64,000 bases of DNA from positions 1-64,000 of the forward strand of contig DUPM01000088.1 of the NCBI GenBank assembly GCA_012838315.1, given 5' to 3'. This document shows, in pieces, positions 50,355-61,618 of this stretch (the stretch's first letter is position 1; each line of letters starts with the position of its first letter). Made by a program: the position numbers and the translations under genes. The stretch is from Clostridiaceae bacterium (lineage in GTDB: Bacteria > Bacillota > Clostridia > Saccharofermentanales > Saccharofermentanaceae). The notes under the pieces were generated by a model. The model did no database searches. It saw nothing but the letters and a program-made list of their open reading frames with translations, and had not been told where the DNA came from.

Positions 50355-51035
50355 TCAACAATCGCAAGTTCTTCTCGCCACTATATCACCATGCTTTTTG
50401 TAAATACTGTTGGCGGGTACAAAGCCACGAACCATTGAAAGCGGATAAATAATCGAATTTCTTCCGACAATTGTAGCCGGGTTTAATACGCTATTGCATC
50501 CTACTTCAGTATGATCCCCGATGATGGCGCCAAACTTCTTCATGCCTGTCGGAAATCTCTGCGCACCACAAGTGAATATGGTCAGCGTCTGATCCGACTT
50601 AACGTTGGAAGTAATCGCACCCGCACCCATGTGTGCCTTAAAACCGAGCACGGAGTCTCCGACGTAATTGTAGTGAGGAACCTGAACACCGTCAAACAGA
50701 ATGACGTTCTTAAGTTCAGTTGAATTACCGACAACTGCGTTCTTTCCGACAATAGCACTGCCGCGAATGAAAGCACAGTGCCTAATCTGCGCGCCGTGAT
50801 CAATGATACAAGGTCCTGCGATATAAGCGGACGGAAATACATCTGCACTTTTTGAAATCCAGATATCCTCTCCCCTCTTCTCATAAAGCTCAAGGTCCAG
50901 AGTTGCACCGAGTTTAAGTATGAATGACTTAATGTCCGGCAATACCTCCCAAACATTCGCACGATTCTCGAAAATCTCCGCAGCGATTGTCTTCTCTAAA
51001 TCAAATAAATCCGAAATCTGAATACCTAAAACCAT
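50355..51035 (-). CDS. left-handed beta-helix (hexapeptide) transferase-like protein
   Basis: A 226-residue protein with an N-terminal helical segment (residues 1-50) and a hexapeptide-repeat beta-helix from about residue 60 to 205: I-S-K-S-A-D-V-F-P, A-Y-I-A-G-P-C-I-I, A-F-I-R-G-S-A-I-V-G, V-V-G-N-S-T-E-L-K-N, G-A-G-A-I-T-S-N-V, G-C-N-S-V-L-N-P-A-T-I-V-G. It resembles the C-terminal acetyltransferase half of GlmU but lacks a uridylyltransferase domain. It follows glmS by 70 bases, so an amino-sugar acetylation role is plausible. Substrate unproven. Confidence 0.82.
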   Translation of the reverse strand: MVLGIQISDLFDLEKTIAAEIFENRANVWEVLPDIKSFILKLGATLDLELYEKRGEDIWISKSADVFPSAYIAGPCIIDHGAQIRHCAFIRGSAIVGKNAVVGNSTELKNVILFDGVQVPHYNYVGDSVLGFKAHMGAGAITSNVKSDQTLTIFTCGAQRFPTGMKKFGAIIGDHTEVGCNSVLNPATIVGRNSIIYPLSMVRGFVPANSIYKKHGDIVARRTCDC

Positions 51036-51105: not shown

Positions 51106-52971
51106 TTATTCAACCGTCACGCTCTTAGCCAGATTTCTGGGCTTATCAACGTCGCAGCCCTTGTTTACAGCCATATAGTACGCAAACAACTGACACGGTG
51201 TCACCGCTACCAAAGGGGCCAAAAGAGGATCAATCTGCGGAATAAAAAATGTCTCATCACAAGCATTCGCCGCCTTCGTCTGCGTTTCGTTTGTAATGCC
51301 AAGAACAACAGCGCCCCTGGCTTTGACCTCGGCGATATTCGAAATCATTTTTTCAAGCAATACTTCTTGTGTCAACGAACAGACGACCAACGTACCCTTT
51401 TCAATTAAAGCAATCGTACCGTGCTTGAGCTCTCCGCCCGGATAGGCCTCTGAATGAATATATGAGATCTCCTTGAGTTTTAGAGATGCTTCCATAGATA
51501 AATAGTAATCAAGTCCTCTTCCAATAAAGAAGATACTCTTTGCATTGAAGTGTGAAGATGCAAATCTCTGAATCTCAGACTGCTTGGCTAAAGTGGCTTC
51601 GATATGTTCCGGCACTTTCAGCAATTCGGATTGATATCGCAAATAATCCTTCTCGGTCATTTTGCCGATCATGTAGGACATCTCGAACGCAATCAAATAA
51701 ATACAGGCTAATTGCGTAACATACGCCTTTGTCGAGGCAACAGAAATCTCAGGTCCGGCAGCAGTGTATAGCACATAATCCGCTTCTCTGGCTATTGAAC
51801 TTCCGATGACGTTGACTATAGAAAGCGTCTTTGCTCCACGCTTTTTGGCTTCGCGCATCGCAGCCAACGTATCGAGGGTTTCCCCGGATTGACTGATAAT
51901 AATCACAATCGAATCGTCGTCAATAATTGGATCTTTATATCTGAATTCCGATGCGACGTCGACTTCTACAGGAATTCGACAGAGTTTTTCTATGACGCCT
52001 TTTCCGACACAGCCGGCATGATATGCGGTTCCGCAAGCGACAATATGAATGCGTCGGGCAGATAGTATGGCCTCCTTCGTCAACGGAAAATGCTCAAGCA
52101 TGATTTTGTTGTTACGGATTCGAGGCGCCACCGTTGCCCTGACAGCCTTTGGCTCTTCAAACATTTCTTTCATCATGAAATGCTCGTATCCGCCCTTTTC
52201 CGCGGCCTCCGCATCCCAATCAATCAGAATCGGCTCCCTGGCAACAATTTGCCCATGCACCGTAAATACATTTACGACATCTTTTCGGACCAGAACAATT
52301 TCATTATCTTCAATGATTAACACTCTTCGGGTGTGCTCGATTATGGCCGGAATATCTGATGCCACAAATTGCTCATCATCACCCAATCCGATAATCAGCG
52401 GATTATCTTTTCGCGCAGCAATAAGTATATCCGGATGCTCAATACAGAGGACAACAAGCGCATAAGATCCTTCAAGCTCAAGTAACGCGGTTTGAATAGC
52501 GCTGAATATATCGTTGTTGCAATCCGTTAAGTAGTGAAACTCAATGAGTTGCGCCACCACCTCGGTATCCGTCTGAGACTGGAATATGAATCCTTTAGAA
52601 ATCAAGAAATCTCTGAGTTCCAAATAGTTTTCTATAATTCCATTGTGAACAACACAGATATGGCTGTTCTGAGACAAGTGAGGATGAGAATTCTCATCGC
52701 TCGGCTCGCCATGTGTTGCCCAACGGGTGTGCCCCATACCGATGTGGATGTTGTCGGCCTTTTCAGCTTCAGGGTGAATTGAAAATCCTTTTGACTTAAT
52801 CTGCTCTTTTAAGTTCTTAATTCGACCCTTTTTTTTGATGACCTGGATCTTATCGTCTTTCAAAAATGTGACGCCTGCCGAGTCATATCCTCTGTATTCA
52901 AGCTTTTTTAGGCCCTCAACAACAATCGGCAACGCTTCCTGATTACCGATATAGCCAACGATTCCACACAT
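51106..52971 (-). CDS. glmS: glutamine-fructose-6-phosphate aminotransferase (isomerizing)
   Basis: GlmS makes glucosamine-6-phosphate, the first step to UDP-GlcNAc. The 621-residue protein begins C-G-I-V-G-Y-I-G, with the catalytic Cys right after the initiator Met, and has G-H-T-R-W-A-T-H-G in the glutaminase half. Two SIS domains follow (A-C-G-T-A-Y-H-A, I-S-Q-S-G-E-T-L-D-T, and G-R-G-L-D-Y) and the end is P-R-N-L-A-K-S-V-T-V-E. The length is standard. It begins 19 bases after glmM, leaving no room for a glmS ribozyme. Confidence 0.98.
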   Translation of the reverse strand: MCGIVGYIGNQEALPIVVEGLKKLEYRGYDSAGVTFLKDDKIQVIKKKGRIKNLKEQIKSKGFSIHPEAEKADNIHIGMGHTRWATHGEPSDENSHPHLSQNSHICVVHNGIIENYLELRDFLISKGFIFQSQTDTEVVAQLIEFHYLTDCNNDIFSAIQTALLELEGSYALVVLCIEHPDILIAARKDNPLIIGLGDDEQFVASDIPAIIEHTRRVLIIEDNEIVLVRKDVVNVFTVHGQIVAREPILIDWDAEAAEKGGYEHFMMKEMFEEPKAVRATVAPRIRNNKIMLEHFPLTKEAILSARRIHIVACGTAYHAGCVGKGVIEKLCRIPVEVDVASEFRYKDPIIDDDSIVIIISQSGETLDTLAAMREAKKRGAKTLSIVNVIGSSIAREADYVLYTAAGPEISVASTKAYVTQLACIYLIAFEMSYMIGKMTEKDYLRYQSELLKVPEHIEATLAKQSEIQRFASSHFNAKSIFFIGRGLDYYLSMEASLKLKEISYIHSEAYPGGELKHGTIALIEKGTLVVCSLTQEVLLEKMISNIAEVKARGAVVLGITNETQTKAANACDETFFIPQIDPLLAPLVAVTPCQLFAYYMAVNKGCDVDKPRNLAKSVTVE

Positions 52972-52990: not shown

Positions 52991-54343
52991 TTATGAAAAG
53001 TGTCTCTGAATAATACCGACCAAATTCCCGGCCATGAGCGCAATTTCTTCCTTGTTCTCGCCTTCAATCATGACGCGAACAATAGGCTCTGTTCCGGAAG
53101 CACGGACTAAAATACGACCCTTTCCTGCCAGCTCAGTTTCGTAATTTTGAATTGCAGTTTGAAGCTCGGGAAGCGCCATTGCCGCCGATTTATCTTCGTT
53201 TTTCACCTTTGCGGATAACAAAACTTGTGGGAGAATGTGAATAATTTCTCCTGCCTTTTCCATTGATTGATCTTTTCGCCTGAGAGCCTTCAACAGAGCA
53301 AGCGCCGTGAGCATCCCATCACCCGTCGTTGCGTGATCTAAAAGGATAACGTGCCCGGATTGTTCGCCTCCGATGTTGTAATCATTTTCAAGCATATTCT
53401 CAAGGACATAACGGTCCCCGACTTTTGTCTTTTCGACGTGAATACCATTCTTTTCGGCCATGATATCCAACCCTAAGTTGCTCATGACTGTCGCTACAAT
53501 TGTATTGGACTTGAGTTCTCCAAAGCATTTCATATCGTTTGCAATAATCGACATAATCATGTCACCATCGACCATCTTGCCGGCACCATCAACTGCCAAT
53601 AAGCGATCTGCGTCTCCATCAAAAGCCAATCCCAAGTCACACTTCTCCAATACGACTAACTCCTGAAGCTTTTCCATGTGCGTCGATCCACAATCCTTGT
53701 TGATGTTGACCCCATTTGGCTGATTCCCGATGACCACTACCACAGCGCCCAGATCTTCAAATAACTCACTGGCTACATCATATGATGCGCCGTTTGCACA
53801 ATCGATTGCTATGCGCATACCGGACAAATCGACACTCATTCTTCTCTTAAGATGCTCGATATAATCATGAGCCGCAACCGTCTTCTCATACACAGTACCG
53901 ACCTCTTCGCCGACAACACGATTTTTGGAAAATACGTCGTAATCCGTCACACGCTTTTCGATCTCATCTTCAATCTCATCTGATAGTTTGAATCCGTTAC
54001 CGGAAAAAAACTTAATACCGTTGAACTCAAATGAATTATGCGACGCGGATATCATAACACCGGCGTCGCATTTGTACTTCTTTGTAAGATAAGCTACTGC
54101 GGGGGTTGGTATAACACCGCATTTGATGACATCGGCACCCGCAGAGCATATGCCTCCGACGAGAGCCGCCTCGAGCATTTTGCAGGAAATACGGGTATCC
54201 ATTCCGATTAATATCTTTGGTTTTCGATTCGCGTTCACAGCCAATACCATCGCACCGGCGTACCCCAACCGAAAGGCCAAGTCCGGCGTAAGCTCCTTGT
54301 TTGCTACGCCTCGAACACCATCTGTACCAAATAAACGACTCAT
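52991..54343 (-). CDS. glmM: phosphoglucosamine mutase
   Basis: GlmM converts glucosamine-6-phosphate to glucosamine-1-phosphate; in Bacillus it also binds and restrains CdaA. The 450-residue protein begins F-G-T-D-G-V-R-G-V-A, with the phosphoserine loop S-A-S-H-N near residue 100 (V-M-I-S-A-S-H-N), the metal site D-G-D-A-D-R, G-G-E-Q-S-G-H and the phosphate-binding R-A-S-G-T-E-P. The length is normal. It lies 13 bases after cdaA and 19 before glmS. Confidence 0.98.
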   Translation of the reverse strand: MSRLFGTDGVRGVANKELTPDLAFRLGYAGAMVLAVNANRKPKILIGMDTRISCKMLEAALVGGICSAGADVIKCGVIPTPAVAYLTKKYKCDAGVMISASHNSFEFNGIKFFSGNGFKLSDEIEDEIEKRVTDYDVFSKNRVVGEEVGTVYEKTVAAHDYIEHLKRRMSVDLSGMRIAIDCANGASYDVASELFEDLGAVVVVIGNQPNGVNINKDCGSTHMEKLQELVVLEKCDLGLAFDGDADRLLAVDGAGKMVDGDMIMSIIANDMKCFGELKSNTIVATVMSNLGLDIMAEKNGIHVEKTKVGDRYVLENMLENDYNIGGEQSGHVILLDHATTGDGMLTALALLKALRRKDQSMEKAGEIIHILPQVLLSAKVKNEDKSAAMALPELQTAIQNYETELAGKGRILVRASGTEPIVRVMIEGENKEEIALMAGNLVGIIQRHFS

Positions 54344-54356
54344 ATAATTGCCTCCG

Positions 54357-55874
54357 TTAAGTTATAGTTTTCGGATAAATAACCACCGATATCGTTTCCG
54401 GATCCTGAGATTCCAAACGATAGTATACATTTTTATTCGAAGAAATATCAATAGGTATGCTATAAACTCCCGGACCGGTAACCTGTAAATAGTCAACCGA
54501 AGCAATCATGTCTGCACTCTGCAGATTATCGAGTACACTCTTACGACCGACAATTAATATCGTCACGCTCTCGTAGTTAAAGTTCGTTTCGAGCCCGTTT
54601 TCTTCCAACACAGACTCCGATTCAAAAAACAAAGGTACAGAAAGTGTCTTCTCAACCACGGGATTGTTGTTAATCTGAATATACATCCATAGCCCGAGCG
54701 AGATAAAAAAAGAAAGAAGAATGTACAAAACCTTATGCGACGTATTCATCCGATTGTATGTCGAGGTGGATTTATTCCCATTAAATAAATGAAAAACTGA
54801 TTTTCTCTTTGTCGAAGCGGAATCGGCAGAGGATACAGCGCACACGCCGGAAGCTGCGACAGTATCAACCTTTTCTCCCATATTTCGAATAACATCTTTA
54901 TTATCTGAATCGATTGCAGTCGAAGTCTCGTTTGCTGGAACAGAGCCTTCCTGTTTCTTTTTACGAAGATTATTTCTCTCATAACGAATGCGGCGAACCA
55001 ATCGGCCCGCTACAGAATTCATGCCGAAAACGCTGAGAAGGTTTTTTCTGAGATCTTCTCCATTTTTCATCTCGTAAAGACAGCCGTGAATTGCCAAAGA
55101 CACCTTTCCACGCTCTTCGGAAACAGCGATCGCAACCGCGTCCCCCATCTCACTGGCACCAACTGCCGCGCGATGTCGAGTCCCAAAATTCACAAGGGTG
55201 TGCCCTGTATCGGATAAAGGCACATGGCAACGAGCGGCGACAATTCTGGTATTGCGAATTAGGACCGCACCATCATGAAGCGGGGATCCTTTGTAAAAGA
55301 TAGATTCCAACATTGGAGAATTAACAGAAGAGTCCAGAAATACTACATTCTCTTGTTCCAGAAGTTCGCCGAGTTTGGAATTTCTCTCGATAATGATAAG
55401 AGCGCCGGTATAGGTCTTTGCCATTGCGTTGGTCGCATAGACGATATTGTCAATCATCGCAGTGACGTCTTCATTTTCTGATGGATCTTCTTGAATAAAT
55501 GCATTGGAGAATGTCGAAAATGACTTGAGCCCAACGGTCTCAAGCGCTCGTCGAAGCTCCGGTTGGAAAATGACGACAAAAGCAATTGCGATAACATAGA
55601 GCATCCTATTAAATAGAAAGCTCACCATCTCAAGTCCAAAAAGGCTACATACCAGAGTAAAAATGACAATCAACGACAATCCTTGCAGAAGTTGCCAAGC
55701 GCGTGTCTGACGAAGAAGCTTGATGAGCTGAAACGTCAAAAATGTGATTAATAGAATATCGACAACATATCGGATAATTTCCGCAGGACCGCCGAAAAAC
55801 AGGTACCCGCTGTCCAAGCCGGCGAATATTTCCGCAAAGAAATCGAAAACCTGGGCCATGATACCGTCATTCAA
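54357..55874 (-). CDS. cdaA: diadenylate cyclase CdaA fused to a YbbR (CdaR-like) domain
   Basis: A 505-residue fusion. Residues 31-105 hold three transmembrane helices as in CdaA. The DisA_N cyclase core covers about 115-270, with the D-G-A motif at 201-203 (S-P-L-H-D-G-A-V-L-I) and G-T-R-H-R-A-A-V-G at 231-239, the catalytic pair for making c-di-AMP from ATP. CdaA normally ends near residue 275. Here a basic, then Ser/Thr-rich linker follows (300-375), a fourth transmembrane helix (381-400) and one YbbR-type beta domain (about 405-503) on the outside. In Bacillus the YbbR protein CdaR is a separate gene with several domains. The start is a TTG behind GGAGG; glmM follows. Confidence 0.93.
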   Translation of the reverse strand: MNDGIMAQVFDFFAEIFAGLDSGYLFFGGPAEIIRYVVDILLITFLTFQLIKLLRQTRAWQLLQGLSLIVIFTLVCSLFGLEMVSFLFNRMLYVIAIAFVVIFQPELRRALETVGLKSFSTFSNAFIQEDPSENEDVTAMIDNIVYATNAMAKTYTGALIIIERNSKLGELLEQENVVFLDSSVNSPMLESIFYKGSPLHDGAVLIRNTRIVAARCHVPLSDTGHTLVNFGTRHRAAVGASEMGDAVAIAVSEERGKVSLAIHGCLYEMKNGEDLRKNLLSVFGMNSVAGRLVRRIRYERNNLRKKKQEGSVPANETSTAIDSDNKDVIRNMGEKVDTVAASGVCAVSSADSASTKRKSVFHLFNGNKSTSTYNRMNTSHKVLYILLSFFISLGLWMYIQINNNPVVEKTLSVPLFFESESVLEENGLETNFNYESVTILIVGRKSVLDNLQSADMIASVDYLQVTGPGVYSIPIDISSNKNVYYRLESQDPETISVVIYPKTIT

Positions 55875-55925
55875 TCGATGTGTCCTCCCTCATATTTTCG
55901 CCATTCATTATATCATAAAAGAAGC

Positions 55926-56927
55926 TTATCTTTCTTCTCTGAAATAGGGGCGCCCGATTTCTTTCGGGCCGGGCCATGCCTTTTTGCGGAAGGAAAAAGC
56001 GATGAGTACCACGACGGTTAATAAATATGGAAACATCGACATGATGTACTGATTGAATATCGGTATGGATGATAGTCGTTCATTTAGCTGAACCGAAAAT
56101 CCTAGAATCGTCAATGAACCAAAAACATAGGCTCCGGCTATGGCTTTGATCGGATGCCAGCGAACAAAAATGACGAGTGCGACGACCAACCAACCCTGTC
56201 CGGCTGTCATATTGCTCGTCCACGATCCCTGTTGCACGAGCGGAAGGTAGAGTCCGCCAATACCACACAACATGCCTCCGAGAATGATGTAAAAGTATTT
56301 AATACGAGTCACCTTGATGCCGGATGCGTCTGCAGCCGCTGTGTTTTCACCCGTCAGACGAAGTTCAAGACCGGCTCGTGTCTTAAACAAGAACACCGTC
56401 GCAACAACGGCCACCAATACAGCAACATACACATATATATTGTGTGATAGAAAAGCTTTGTTGATAAATGTAAGAAATGGACCCGAAGGGCTCGACAGAG
56501 AAAATGGCTTTAGCTTGAATATCTTAGCAATATTATCCGGGGTGGAAGTATTCGAGACCTTGCTACCGAGGGAGTTCGCAAGACCGGCGCCAAATATCGA
56601 CAGCGCCAGGCCGGCGACGTTCTGATTCACTCTGAGGGTCACGGTCAAAATGGCATATAGTAATGCCCCAAACCCTGCGCCGACACAGGCAAATAAGATT
56701 GCCAGAAAAAGACTTGAAGAACGAACAGCTGCGAAGTATCCCATTGAAGCACCTAAAAGCATCATACCCTCAACACCCAGATTGAGATGACCCGCACGTT
56801 CTGTAATAAGTTCACCAACTGTACCAAATAGCATAACCACAGAAAACGCTATGGCAGAGGCGATAAAACTTGCGCTAAATACAATCGACAACAGAGAACC
56901 CGTTGCTGAAAAAAAGTCTCCAATCAT
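55926..56927 (-). CDS. nucleoside ABC transporter permease 2
   Basis: A 333-residue permease of the BPD_transp_2 (RbsC/YufQ) type with about ten membrane helices. It has the conserved L-N-L-G-V-E-G-M-M-L-L-G near residue 47, and G-G-L-Y-L-P-L-V-Q and G-Q-G-W-L-V-V-A-L near residues 225-250. It pairs with the upstream permease, whose stop it overlaps (ATGA). With the BMP-type binding protein, the family imports purine nucleosides or related bases. It is the last transport gene; cdaA starts 51 bases later. Confidence 0.9.
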   Translation of the reverse strand: MIGDFFSATGSLLSIVFSASFIASAIAFSVVMLFGTVGELITERAGHLNLGVEGMMLLGASMGYFAAVRSSSLFLAILFACVGAGFGALLYAILTVTLRVNQNVAGLALSIFGAGLANSLGSKVSNTSTPDNIAKIFKLKPFSLSSPSGPFLTFINKAFLSHNIYVYVAVLVAVVATVFLFKTRAGLELRLTGENTAAADASGIKVTRIKYFYIILGGMLCGIGGLYLPLVQQGSWTSNMTAGQGWLVVALVIFVRWHPIKAIAGAYVFGSLTILGFSVQLNERLSSIPIFNQYIMSMFPYLLTVVVLIAFSFRKKAWPGPKEIGRPYFREER

Positions 56928-58066
56928 AGCGCATTCTCCTTTGTTTCGACTATCGGCTCAACATGATGAACTTCTTCTTTATCCGATGGAATCGCATCTA
57001 ATTTATTCTTAGCCCCATGTGCTCCAACCACCACTTTATACCTCAGCATGAATTCCGAACCTAACACAGACATCAAAATGAGTCCCTTTACAATGTCTGC
57101 AACGGCTGCGGGCACACCCATTCGAACCTGAATAAACTGCGCACCTTGCTCAAGTGCAGCGATGAGGAAAGAAACGACAATGATCATCGGTGCAGAAAGG
57201 TTTGCCAGCCAAGCGATGACAATCGCGGTAAAACCGGCACCTCCTCCGAGGCTCGAAGAAAGCGTACCGGTTGATCCCATGAGCTTAACGGCGCCAGCAA
57301 TTCCAACAATTCCGCCGGACAACAAGACACCGACAAACATGATTTTTTTGACGTTCATACCCGCGTAGTGCGCCGTCGGCTCACTTTCACCGACAACACG
57401 AATTTCATAGCCTAATTTTGTTTTCTTAATCAAAAAGAATACGAGAATTACAATAATCAGCGGCGCAACAATCGCGAGGCTGACTCCCGAAACATAAGGG
57501 ATTCTCGCTTTAAAAGGGATATCTTGTATACCGGGAAAACCCATTTTTGCCGGGTCTTTCCATAATTCGAAATAGAGGTACTGCACAAAGCAGATGGCTA
57601 GGTAGTTCATCATTAACGTAAAAAGAGTCTCATTCGTCTTCATGTGAATTCTAAAAAAACCGGGAATCAGTGCCCAGACGCTTCCACCGACAAAACCGGC
57701 CAAAAGCATCGCAATCATCATGAGCGGTCCGGGTGTTGAGGCCGGCATAATCATTGAGACACCCATGGCCGCAGTGGCCCCCATGAGGATTTGCCCTTCT
57801 CCGCCGATGTTCCAGTATCTCATTTTGAAAGCAATGGATAGTCCCAGCGCTGTCACACTTAAGGGAATCAGAAACGAAATCGTATTTCTAATAGCGATTG
57901 CGCTTCCAAACGACCCCTCCGCAAGAGAGATAAAGGTCTTGATCACCGGATAGCCGAGTGCGGCAATGATGATTCCGGATAAAACGATACCGATCAAAAA
58001 GCCAATTAAACGATATGAAATCGCTTCCTTTTTAGAAAAGGATTCCTTTTTCGAAATTCTAAACAT
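56924..58066 (-). CDS. nucleoside ABC transporter permease 1
   Basis: A 380-residue permease of the same family, with eight to ten helices and the signature W-N-I-G-G-E-G-Q-I-L-M-G-A-T near residue 95, and E-S-E-P-T-A-H-Y-A-G near residue 230. The C-terminal 35 residues are a polar tail. The start is ATG 58066 with GAGG eight bases upstream, overlapping the ATP-binding protein gene by eight bases. An upstream ATG adds nine residues without such a site. Confidence 0.9.
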   Translation of the reverse strand: MFRISKKESFSKKEAISYRLIGFLIGIVLSGIIIAALGYPVIKTFISLAEGSFGSAIAIRNTISFLIPLSVTALGLSIAFKMRYWNIGGEGQILMGATAAMGVSMIMPASTPGPLMMIAMLLAGFVGGSVWALIPGFFRIHMKTNETLFTLMMNYLAICFVQYLYFELWKDPAKMGFPGIQDIPFKARIPYVSGVSLAIVAPLIIVILVFFLIKKTKLGYEIRVVGESEPTAHYAGMNVKKIMFVGVLLSGGIVGIAGAVKLMGSTGTLSSSLGGGAGFTAIVIAWLANLSAPMIIVVSFLIAALEQGAQFIQVRMGVPAAVADIVKGLILMSVLGSEFMLRYKVVVGAHGAKNKLDAIPSDKEEVHHVEPIVETKENAL

Positions 58067-59669
58067 AACTGACACCTCGCCGGAGTTCTTCAAGTGTGGT
58101 GCCGGACATCATTTGACCGATTTCTTCTTTCGTTGTCGCAGATGAATCGACGATTCCCATATTTTTTCCTTGGCACAGGACCATGATACGATCACAAAGA
58201 TCAATCAACACATCCAGATCTTCACCAATATAAAGAACAGAAACATTCTTCTGTTTTTGCTCATTGAGCAAATTATATATCGTATAAGACGAATGAATAT
58301 CCAGGCCTCGAACGGCATATGCGGCTATCATCAACTTCGGGTTCAAATGAATCTCTCTGCCGAGTATAACTTTTTGAATATTTCCTCCGGAAAGCATTCT
58401 AACAGGATGCTTAAGTCCGGGCGTTTTGATATCCAATTCTTTGATAATCTTCTCGGCTTTTGTTTCCACGTCCTTCATGCGAATCAGCGGGCCCTTCGTC
58501 AGCGCATACTCTTTTAGCAATATATTCTCGTCGATACCCATCGATGCAACCAGCCCCATACCAAGACGGTCTTCGGGAATGAAGCACATCGCAACGCCCT
58601 TCTGTGTAATATCTCTGGGCGACAAACCTGTGATTCGCTCTTCATCAACCATAATCTCCCCTTGCTGGGGACGAATGATGCCGGCAATTGATTCACAAAG
58701 TTCCTTCTGACCTCCGCCGGCCAGCCCAGCAACACCGAGAATTTCGCCATAATGCGTCGTAAACGAAAGATTATCGAGTTTTGGAACCGCTTTTGAATCG
58801 GAGTATGTCAATCCCTTAACCTCCAAACAAACCTGTTTCTTGGGATCGGGATCCGGCTTATTTATCGACAAGTTGATTTTGCGACCCACCATTTTTTCGA
58901 CTAAATCATAAGCGTCTATATCAGAGACATTGCAGGTCTCGATACTCTTTCCTTTTCGCAGAACCGTCACTCGGTCACAAAGAGTCATGATTTCGTTGAG
59001 TTTGTGGCTGATAAATACAATTGCACAACCTTGAGACGCCATTTTTCGAAGTACTGTAAATAATTTTTTGGCTTCTTGCGGTGTTAAGACCGCTGTTGGC
59101 TCGTCAAGAATCAGTATGTTCGCACCACGAAGCAACACCTTAATAATCTCGACCGACTGTTTCTGACTGACCGAAAGTTGACTCGCCGGGATGGACGGAT
59201 CAAACTCAATTCCGAAACGCGATGAGAATTCGTTGATTTTTGGATGTGTTTTTGAAGGAGAGCGAGAAGCATATCTCAGAATATTGGCGCGCAAAACATC
59301 ATCTTTTTTGATCGAGTTCTTAGGTGGCTTTTTCATGCCGGCGACAATATTATCTGTCGCAGTCATCGCTTCGGCCAATTTAAAGTGTTGATGAATCATG
59401 CCAATACCACTGTCGATTGCATCTCCCGGAGAGCGAAAATCTTTAATCTCGCCGTTCACTTCGATCTGACCTTCATCCGGTCGGTATATGCCGGATAGCA
59501 CATTCATTAAAGTGCTCTTACCCGAACCGTTTTCGCCGAGTAACGCATGAATTTCTCCCGGCAACACCTCAAAATCCACAGCCTCGTTGGCAACGACTGC
59601 GCCGAATATTTTGGTGATTCCTCGCATACTAAATGCCGGCTGAGTATCCTTTCGGATATTAGGTTCCAT
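58059..59669 (-). CDS. nucleoside ABC transporter ATP-binding protein (two domains)
   Basis: A 536-residue double ABC ATPase of the RbsA/YufO type. Domain 1 has Walker A G-E-N-G-S-G-K-S-T near residue 45, the signature L-S-V-S-Q-K-Q-S and Walker B I-L-I-L-D-E-P-T-A-V-L. Domain 2 has a degenerate Walker A G-L-A-G-G-G-Q-K-E and the signature L-S-G-G-N-I-Q-K, with A-A-Y-A-V-R-G-L-D in place of a full Walker B. Such an asymmetric pair is usual in this family. The start is ATG 59669 with GGAGG five bases upstream. A strong hairpin lies between it and the binding-protein gene. Confidence 0.93.
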   Translation of the reverse strand: MEPNIRKDTQPAFSMRGITKIFGAVVANEAVDFEVLPGEIHALLGENGSGKSTLMNVLSGIYRPDEGQIEVNGEIKDFRSPGDAIDSGIGMIHQHFKLAEAMTATDNIVAGMKKPPKNSIKKDDVLRANILRYASRSPSKTHPKINEFSSRFGIEFDPSIPASQLSVSQKQSVEIIKVLLRGANILILDEPTAVLTPQEAKKLFTVLRKMASQGCAIVFISHKLNEIMTLCDRVTVLRKGKSIETCNVSDIDAYDLVEKMVGRKINLSINKPDPDPKKQVCLEVKGLTYSDSKAVPKLDNLSFTTHYGEILGVAGLAGGGQKELCESIAGIIRPQQGEIMVDEERITGLSPRDITQKGVAMCFIPEDRLGMGLVASMGIDENILLKEYALTKGPLIRMKDVETKAEKIIKELDIKTPGLKHPVRMLSGGNIQKVILGREIHLNPKLMIAAYAVRGLDIHSSYTIYNLLNEQKQKNVSVLYIGEDLDVLIDLCDRIMVLCQGKNMGIVDSSATTKEEIGQMMSGTTLEELRRGVSYV

Positions 59670-59698
59670 GTATACCTCCGGAAAATAAATACATTTCA

Positions 59699-59724
59699 CG
59701 GCATCCGAGCATATTCGGATGCCG
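59699..59724 (-). other. intercistronic stem-loop between binding protein and ATPase genes
   Basis: CGGCATCCGA (59699-59708) and TCGGATGCCG (59715-59724) form a perfect ten-base stem with a six-base loop. No T-run follows. Similar hairpins behind binding-protein genes protect the upstream mRNA and lower downstream expression, giving excess binding protein. Confidence 0.7.
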
Positions 59725-59751
59725 CAAAATGCTTATTCGTAAACTATTTGT

Positions 59752-60870
59752 TTAGGAAGGAATTTGGCCGATGACGCCCTCAACAAACCAAGCCATACCC
59801 ATCTGATCGTCGTAAGGAATACTTTCTCCTTCAGCAATCTTCAGTTCACCATTCTGATCATATATCGGACCTGCAAAAACAAATGCATTTCCTTTTTCAG
59901 TCACTTCAGAACGCGCTGCTTCAACTGCAGCCTTTGCCTCCTCTGAAACAAGCGGTGAAAGCGCATCAAGCTTTGCTACGCCTTCTTTCATACCGCCCCA
60001 ATAATTCTCAACGGCCCACTTGCCATCAAGCACTTGGCCGATCTTGTAAGTGTAGTATGTGCCCCAATCCCAGAGCGGCGCGGTCAAATAAGCATCCGGA
60101 GCGCCGGCATAGGTCAAGTCGTAGCCAATCGCATAAGCACCGGCTGATTCAGCCGCTTCAATCGCTGACGGAGAATCCTGGTGTTGTGCCATGATGTCAC
60201 ATCCATCGGCTAATAGGGCTTCTGCAGAAGCTTGCTCAACAGCAGGATCAAACCATGTGTTCGTCCAGGATACTTTTACGACAACATCCGGATTAACCGA
60301 ACGTGCCCCAAGCGTATATGCATTGATCCCGCGGATAACTTCCGGAATCGGGAATGCTGCGACATATCCAAGTTGATTCGTCTCGGTCATCATACCGGCT
60401 ACGATACCTGAAAGATAGCGAGCGGTTTCGATCTGACCGAAGTATGCATCCATATTCTTGCCTTCATAGCCGTTACCGGAATATTTGTAGCCCGAACAAT
60501 GTGAAAAATAGACCTCAGGATACTTCGCCGCTGCCGCTACAGTCGGATCCATGTATCCGTAACTGGTGGTGAAAATCAACGTGCACCCATCATTTACGAG
60601 GTTCTCGATAGCAGCGTTCGTTGCTTCAACATCCGCATCGTCAACACTTTCAAGTTTTTTGACTTCAATTTTGTCTCCATAGGTCGCAATCGCCTTGGCA
60701 ATGCCTTCGGCATGCGCCTGAGAATATCCGCCGTCATCCTCCGGCGAAATGTAAACAACACCGACCTTGAGCACTTTGTCTTTCTCTTCTTCCTTTTTGT
60801 CGCAACCGGTGATGGCAAGCATACCGACCATCATGATAACAGCGACAATCAATGACATGACTCTCTTCAT
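59752..60870 (-). CDS. BMP-family nucleoside-binding lipoprotein
   Basis: A 372-residue lipoprotein. The signal peptide ends in the lipobox L-A-I-T-G-C (Cys23). The mature part matches the BMP/PnrA/Med family: V-G-V-V-Y-I-S-P-E-D-D-G-G-Y-S, F-T-T-S-Y-G-Y-M-D, Y-V-A-A-F-P-I-P-E-V-I-R-G-I-N-A and V-S-W-T-N-T-W-F-D-P. These proteins bind purine nucleosides or related compounds. The ATG has AGGAGG seven bases upstream. It follows xpt by 21 bases, pointing to purine uptake. Confidence 0.93.
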   Translation of the reverse strand: MKRVMSLIVAVIMMVGMLAITGCDKKEEEKDKVLKVGVVYISPEDDGGYSQAHAEGIAKAIATYGDKIEVKKLESVDDADVEATNAAIENLVNDGCTLIFTTSYGYMDPTVAAAAKYPEVYFSHCSGYKYSGNGYEGKNMDAYFGQIETARYLSGIVAGMMTETNQLGYVAAFPIPEVIRGINAYTLGARSVNPDVVVKVSWTNTWFDPAVEQASAEALLADGCDIMAQHQDSPSAIEAAESAGAYAIGYDLTYAGAPDAYLTAPLWDWGTYYTYKIGQVLDGKWAVENYWGGMKEGVAKLDALSPLVSEEAKAAVEAARSEVTEKGNAFVFAGPIYDQNGELKIAEGESIPYDDQMGMAWFVEGVIGQIPS

Positions 60871-60891: not shown

Positions 60892-61476
60892 TTACTCTTC
60901 GTCCGAAAATACGATGCGATGATCGATCTCGGACATCTCTTGAATTATGGCTAGGGAATGAACCCGAATGCCCTTTTTCCGAATACGGCTTCCGCCCTCC
61001 TGAAATCCTTTTTCTATAACGATACCGGCGCCTGCAACCGACGCACCTGACGCCTCTACAATATCAACCAACCCATCCAAAGCACATCCTTTGGCAAGAA
61101 AGTCATCAATAATCAGAACTGTATCCTCCGGTCGCAAATACTTCTTACTGACACGCACAACATAGTCCTTCCCTTTTGTAAAAGAATGCACCGTTGCCGC
61201 AAACGTATCCGTATCGAGATTTTTAGAAACTGTTTTCTTAGCAAAAACCAATGGAACGCCCAGATGAAACGCTGTCGACAAAGCCGGTGCTATACCTGAA
61301 CTCTCAATCGTCAAAACCTTGGTTATTGCCACGTCCGAAAATGTTTCAGCAAAGTCGCGTCCAATCGCATCCATAAGCTGGGGGTCAATTTGGTGATTTA
61401 AGAAGCTGTCTACCTTAAGTATGTCGGTTCCGACAATCGTACCCTCTAAAAGGATTTTGTCCTTAAGTGACTGCAT
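60892..61476 (-). CDS. xpt: xanthine phosphoribosyltransferase
   Basis: Xpt salvages xanthine to XMP. The 194-residue protein starts M-Q-S-L-K-D-K-I and has the family N-terminus (D-S-F-L-N-H-Q-I-D-P), the E-S-S-G-I-A-P-A segment, F-A-K-K and the PRPP loop V-L-I-I-D-D-F-L-A-K-G near residue 125. The length is standard. The start is ATG 61476 with GAGG five bases upstream. It leads the operon xpt-BMP-ABC transporter, so salvage and uptake are coupled. Confidence 0.95.
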   Translation of the reverse strand: MQSLKDKILLEGTIVGTDILKVDSFLNHQIDPQLMDAIGRDFAETFSDVAITKVLTIESSGIAPALSTAFHLGVPLVFAKKTVSKNLDTDTFAATVHSFTKGKDYVVRVSKKYLRPEDTVLIIDDFLAKGCALDGLVDIVEASGASVAGAGIVIEKGFQEGGSRIRKKGIRVHSLAIIQEMSEIDHRIVFSDEE

Positions 61477-61522
61477 ATTGACCTCACAATCGAAACGTTT
61501 TTTATATCCGAAACATAATGAC

Positions 61523-61550
61523 ATTATAAGACATCGCCTCAAAACTTCAA
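61523..61550 (-). promoter_or_regulatory. promoter of the xpt-transporter operon
   Basis: Minus-strand TTGAAG (61550-61545) with a 16-base spacer, or TTTGAA with 17, and TATAAT (61528-61523). The start near 61516 leaves a leader of only about 40 bases, so no purine riboswitch fits. Confidence 0.6.
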
Positions 61551-61618
61551 ACAATGAAACCGAAAACAGATAATAAATATGTTTTAGTGTTTTGGCGAAT
61601 CAGACTCAATACTAATCG

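Follow-up and report, generated by a model that had tools for sequence, protein, structure and literature searches.

The fused gene and its surroundings

The window analysed here, the whole stretch of 64,000 nucleotides of contig DUPM01000088.1 from a Clostridiaceae bacterium, carries on its reverse strand a gene in which a CdaA-type diadenylate cyclase and the beginning of a CdaR-type protein are joined in one open reading frame. From N- to C-terminus, the encoded protein is laid out as a CdaA_N domain with three membrane helices, a DAC domain, a linker predicted to be disordered, a fourth membrane helix (TM4) and one YbbR domain. The features of the locus are as follows.

55883..55889 (-): probable ribosome-binding site GGGAGGA, read from the sequence
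54357..55874 (-): fused cdaA-cdaR gene, single uninterrupted ORF of 505 aa with a TTG start
55560..55787 (-): CdaA_N three-helix membrane domain, residues ~30-105 (Pfam PF19293)
55083..55436 (-): DAC domain, residues 147-264 (Pfam PF02457, E 9.9e-35)
55266..55274 (-): DGA catalytic motif, D201-G202-A203 (ortholog alignment)
55170..55178 (-): RHR catalytic motif, R233-H234-R235 (invariant in the ortholog alignment)
54747..55025 (-): cytoplasmic linker, residues 284-376, variable and mostly predicted disordered
54672..54743 (-): TM4, residues ~378-401, CdaR-type N-terminal TM helix (...LWMYIQI..NPV) (hydropathy, model helices, CdaR profile)
54372..54659 (-): single YbbR domain, predicted external, residues ~406-501, corresponding to CdaR unit 1 (CdaR profile, fold search)
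52991..54343 (-): glmM, phosphoglucosamine mutase, 13 bp downstream of the fused gene (four PGM_PMM Pfam domains)
51106..52971 (-): glmS, glutamine-fructose-6-phosphate aminotransferase, after glmM (SIS and GATase Pfam domains)

The TTG start is supported by the ribosome-binding site and by TTG starts common to near relatives. A TATAAT-like hexamer occurs in the short gap upstream (55880-55930, minus strand), suggesting that the fused gene may have its own promoter, though the transporter genes upstream run in the same direction. These genes, directly upstream at 55926-60870 (-), encode a BMP/PnrA-type substrate-binding protein, an ATPase and two permeases of a nucleoside-type ABC transporter, and a phosphoribosyltransferase gene adjoins them at 60892-61554.

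On the downstream side, glmM follows the fused gene directly, as in the cdaA-cdaR-glmM operon, and both glmM and glmS, named as neighbors in the first-pass annotation, were recognized by their Pfam domains. A gene for a 226-aa hexapeptide-repeat protein lies after glmS (50355-51035, minus strand); this protein is possibly an amino-sugar acetyltransferase or GlmU-related and linked to the locus. Hexapeptide-repeat genes are also found directly 3' of the fused gene at loci L036, L037 and L016 of relatives, where glmM is not next. Nor is glmM directly downstream at L035, L050 and L086, the last of which has a thrS-like gene in that place. This displacement of glmM in part of the order suggests that the fusion outlives the classical operon.

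Identity of the two halves

The N-terminal half matches CdaA. CdaA_N (PF19293) was detected above the Pfam cut-off at residues 34-106 (E 8.9e-8), and in the full-length AF2 model membrane helices span residues 30-56, 59-78 and 82-102 of this domain. The CdaA equivalog TIGR00159 of NCBIfam matched with 202.1 bits against a cut-off of 188.8 (E 9.3e-60), and a fold search with the full-length AF2 model matched the cyclase part to Bacillus subtilis CdaA (8ogk, TMt 0.93). The DGA and RHR motifs, described as complete on first reading, are indeed so at residues 201-203 and 233-235, and nearly all of their residues are invariant in an alignment of 25 orthologs. We infer that the fused protein is a CdaA-type membrane diadenylate cyclase, which by analogy with CdaA/CdaR biology would synthesize c-di-AMP.

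The identity of the C-terminal half is less apparent from Pfam, where YbbR (PF07949) was called in the fused protein at residues 430-499 with E 0.03 and 15.1 bits against a cut-off of 22.3; some orthologs score above this cut-off. We used a CdaR profile built from 17 separate CdaRs of other Clostridia, which matched the fused tail with E 3.5e-17 in a scan of the whole genome. The match is limited to profile positions 6-126 of 416, the part of CdaR that holds its TM helix and YbbR unit 1. In the reverse search, the best domain match of a fused-tail profile fell within the first ~100-130 residues of every separate CdaR. An AF2 model of residues 372-505 reached a mean pLDDT of 86.5, and its top seven PDB fold matches are all YbbR (5hqh, 4qdy, 3lyw, 2kq1, 2kpu, 2kxy and 2l3u), including structures of Listeria monocytogenes lmo2119 and Streptococcus pneumoniae SP_1560. 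The full-length model likewise has a helix at residues 378-403 followed by a YbbR domain; its pTM is 0.38, and TM4, YbbR and cyclase are not placed relative to one another.

The weak Pfam score could be read as pointing to some other small external beta domain, an identity to which we assign practically no probability since it is refuted by the CdaR profile and the seven YbbR fold matches. The weak YbbR call is genuine, and the C-terminus is the CdaR TM helix with YbbR unit 1, ~120-125 residues in all. The tail thus has the N-terminal TM helix and ensuing external YbbR of a CdaR; of the three to four YbbR domains unit 1 alone is present, and the tail shares the open frame of cdaA instead of forming a separate polypeptide after it. 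The linker, fourth membrane helix and YbbR domain of the first-pass annotation are borne out by the agreement of hydropathy, CdaR profile and AF2 models, as is its view that the YbbR array is reduced to one unit, given the end of the profile match.

Distribution, origin and copy number

The fusion is carried by an order of gut and anaerobic-digester Clostridia, which we take to be probably the GTDB order Saccharofermentanales. An ortholog of the fused gene was found in 57 of 58 relatives, and the gene is present in 111 of the 113 genomes of the order, representing four families and 24 genera; named relatives with the gene include Saccharofermentans and 'Ruminococcaceae' MAGs. The orthologs are nearly always single open frames of 435-569 aa, and the short exceptions (G047, G022, G264, G308 and G297) are fragmented or near contig ends, where visible. 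Two of these were considered as unfused members and rejected: the YbbR part missing from L026 (G022) sits at the start of another contig, and the frame of L089 (G047) runs off the contig end. Neither an 85%-identical relative nor the order as a whole has a stop or frameshift in the stretch from residue 275 to 380, and with order-wide orthologs the proposal of a CdaA-CdaR fusion in a single chain is upheld.

Conservation differs along the protein. Majority identity among orthologs is 81% in the DAC domain and about 55% in TM4 and YbbR, compared with 30% in the linker, which ranges from 65 to 99 aa and has pLDDT below 50 at residues 294-376 in the full-chain AF2 model. Invariant residues in the ortholog alignment include a GR pair and an NP motif, and within YbbR G443, R444, Y484 and R486 do not vary. 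Estimates of dN/dS, which come from one pair (the 85%-identical relative) with synonymous sites near saturation, were ~0.040 for TM1-3, 0.044 for TM4 and YbbR and 0.167 for the linker. TM4 and YbbR are under strong purifying selection, as strict as that on the TM1-3 membrane domain.

Outside the order, no other fusion was seen among the matches listed for 196 genomes of the class, nor was one seen in a sample of 159 genomes of the phylum. Long frames in G170 (734 aa), G389 (479 aa) and G358 (576 aa) reflect upstream read-through, with cdaA stopping before a separate cdaR, and the longer CdaAs of G067 and G099 (374-395 aa) are accompanied by a separate CdaR. These two unfused CdaAs (L065 and L070) have a Lys/Glu-rich C-terminal tail of ~90 aa.

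On first reading the fused gene was set against other Clostridia, where the two genes are separate, and this contrast stands: the outgroup cdaA and cdaR are separate ORFs, and the separate CdaRs, 400-497 aa long, contain as many as four stretches that each score as YbbR. The two outgroup ORFs either adjoin or share a few to ~26 nt, which would make an in-frame join easy. All fused proteins group in a single clade (support 100/99) in a maximum-likelihood tree built on the cyclase part, so that a single origin is the simplest reading. In the ancestor of the order, CdaA probably gained in frame the TM helix and YbbR unit 1 of its operon neighbor CdaR, and the remaining YbbR units would have been lost. 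In a fragmented draft with a Pfam YbbR score under the cut-off, one might suspect that faulty assembly or sequencing, or two genes read through by chance, had produced the long frame, but this explanation has next to no likelihood and is refuted by order-wide conservation: about 100 further genomes from four families have the same frame, which has a single origin and whose codons show purifying selection over both halves.

The genome, in 163 contigs, has one DAC match and one CdaR/YbbR match, each of them the fused gene. A search for an independent cdaR had been proposed with the first-pass annotation; neither this nor a second DAC gene was found in the 95.5%-complete genome. A separate multi-domain cdaR could sit in an assembly gap, completeness being 95.5% and not 100%, with the fused YbbR as an extra. 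This is very improbable, as in 37 of 39 related genomes it is the fused frame that the CdaR profile picks out (in G022 the piece is on another contig), and G018 gave the only further match among the 39, one no better than noise (E 0.095). The scan includes the single- or few-contig assemblies G036, G039 and G048, which also speak against a hidden cdaR.

The genome also encodes a PgpH-type protein (7TMR-HDED and HD) and one of DhhP/NrnA type with DHH-DHHA1, and the presence of these PgpH-like and DhhP-like phosphodiesterases makes c-di-AMP turnover plausible. Two further proteins of 587 and 502 aa (L101:421-2184 and L102:1261-2769) have DHH without DHHA1 by Pfam and are candidates for divergent phosphodiesterases. 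A search of the genome for the c-di-AMP riboswitch RF00379 gave no match.

Proposed working and relation to known systems

We think it probable that this cyclase, the sole c-di-AMP synthase found in the genome and ancestrally fused to the CdaR TM helix and first YbbR unit, acts as a 1:1 unit tuned by YbbR. For this reading, sequence comparison supplies the architecture, the conservation, the single origin, the purifying selection that both halves show, the place in the operon and the failure to find a separate cdaR; the contact between TM helices, the topology and the modulation by YbbR are proposed by analogy with CdaA/CdaR biology. The fused protein would most likely be a constitutive CdaA-CdaR unit, two copies of which would pair via their DAC domains to produce c-di-AMP. 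The CdaR helix would pack against the CdaA membrane helices, with one YbbR per subunit on the outer side of the membrane, from where it would tune the cyclase by way of this packing, and GlmM of the same operon may act from the cytoplasmic side. The N-terminus of CdaR is cytoplasmic, and the last 20 residues before TM4 include four K/R and no D/E, suggesting that the topology of the complex of two separate proteins is preserved in the fused form. The TM region of CdaA is where CdaR binds in other species (as summarized in PMC6368335 and PMC10243994), and the CdaA catalytic domain is bound by GlmM (as summarized in PMC6368335).

The first-pass annotation had gone further and suggested direct transmission of an envelope signal. 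This part is not supported: the variable length, low conservation and predicted disorder of the linker argue that it serves as a tether and not as a stiff transducer. So floppy a linker is unlikely to work as a rigid lever, and any signal should pass via helix packing.

Another possibility is that the TM-YbbR part is structural, serving assembly, stability, localization, 1:1 stoichiometry or a scaffold for cell-wall enzymes, and conveys no envelope signal. The variable, disordered linker fits this, as does the loss of most CdaR YbbR units from a gene that was nevertheless kept, and in Staphylococcus aureus CdaR has no conclusive regulatory role (PMC6368335). However, TM4 and YbbR are under purifying selection equal to that on the membrane domain, with the GR pair and NP motif invariant, and CdaR alters c-di-AMP levels in other species: it was activating in B. 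subtilis co-expression (as quoted in PMC8316131) and lowers c-di-AMP in Porphyromonas gingivalis (PMC9259658), so that the published effects differ in sign between species. We regard a purely structural role as unlikely, though far from negligible, and favor the tuned 1:1 unit. A broader idea, which we offer tentatively and with some doubt, is that in this order CdaA and CdaR together are one obligatory membrane receptor-cyclase, with TM helix and YbbR unit 1 as the minimal regulator, and that the other YbbR units of ordinary CdaR are dispensable for cyclase control.

The fused protein shares its membrane domain, DAC, DGA/RHR motifs and fold with CdaA/DacA (TIGR00159; PF19293 and PF02457) of Bacillus, Listeria and Staphylococcus, and the genes have their place in a glmM-glmS operon in common; it differs in a C-terminal extension of ~220 aa comprising linker, TM4 and YbbR. 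The TM helix and first unit of CdaR/YbbR (PF07949), a separate protein with three or four YbbR domains, equal the C-terminal ~125 residues of the fused form, in which the later units are absent and the CdaR N-terminus is linked covalently to CdaA. Proteins uniting CdaA and CdaR are on record for some streptococci (A5LQF8, E1M7C3 and V8IIN0; 2023 review, PMC10243994), so the fusion as such is not new. The streptococcal forms are 'large fusion proteins' of some strains only, whereas the fusion described here has one YbbR, is order-wide and belongs to a separate lineage. In the spirochaete Borrelia turicatae, cdaA also adjoins a gene for a YbbR-domain protein, bt0009 (PMC8316131), but these are two separate genes without a glmM partner. 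In the searchable literature, which leaves most subscription papers outside, neither a single-YbbR form nor order-wide fixation came up, and we found no papers on Saccharofermentans and c-di-AMP or under the term 'CdaA-CdaR fusion'.

The fusion is evolutionary evidence for CdaA and CdaR as functional partners. It fixes the CdaA:CdaR stoichiometry, and with both partners in one gene it offers a construct suited to structure determination and to reconstitution. Fixed across an order with one YbbR, it is also a natural test of which part of CdaR matters, and a lineage that keeps the TM helix and one YbbR points to that part.
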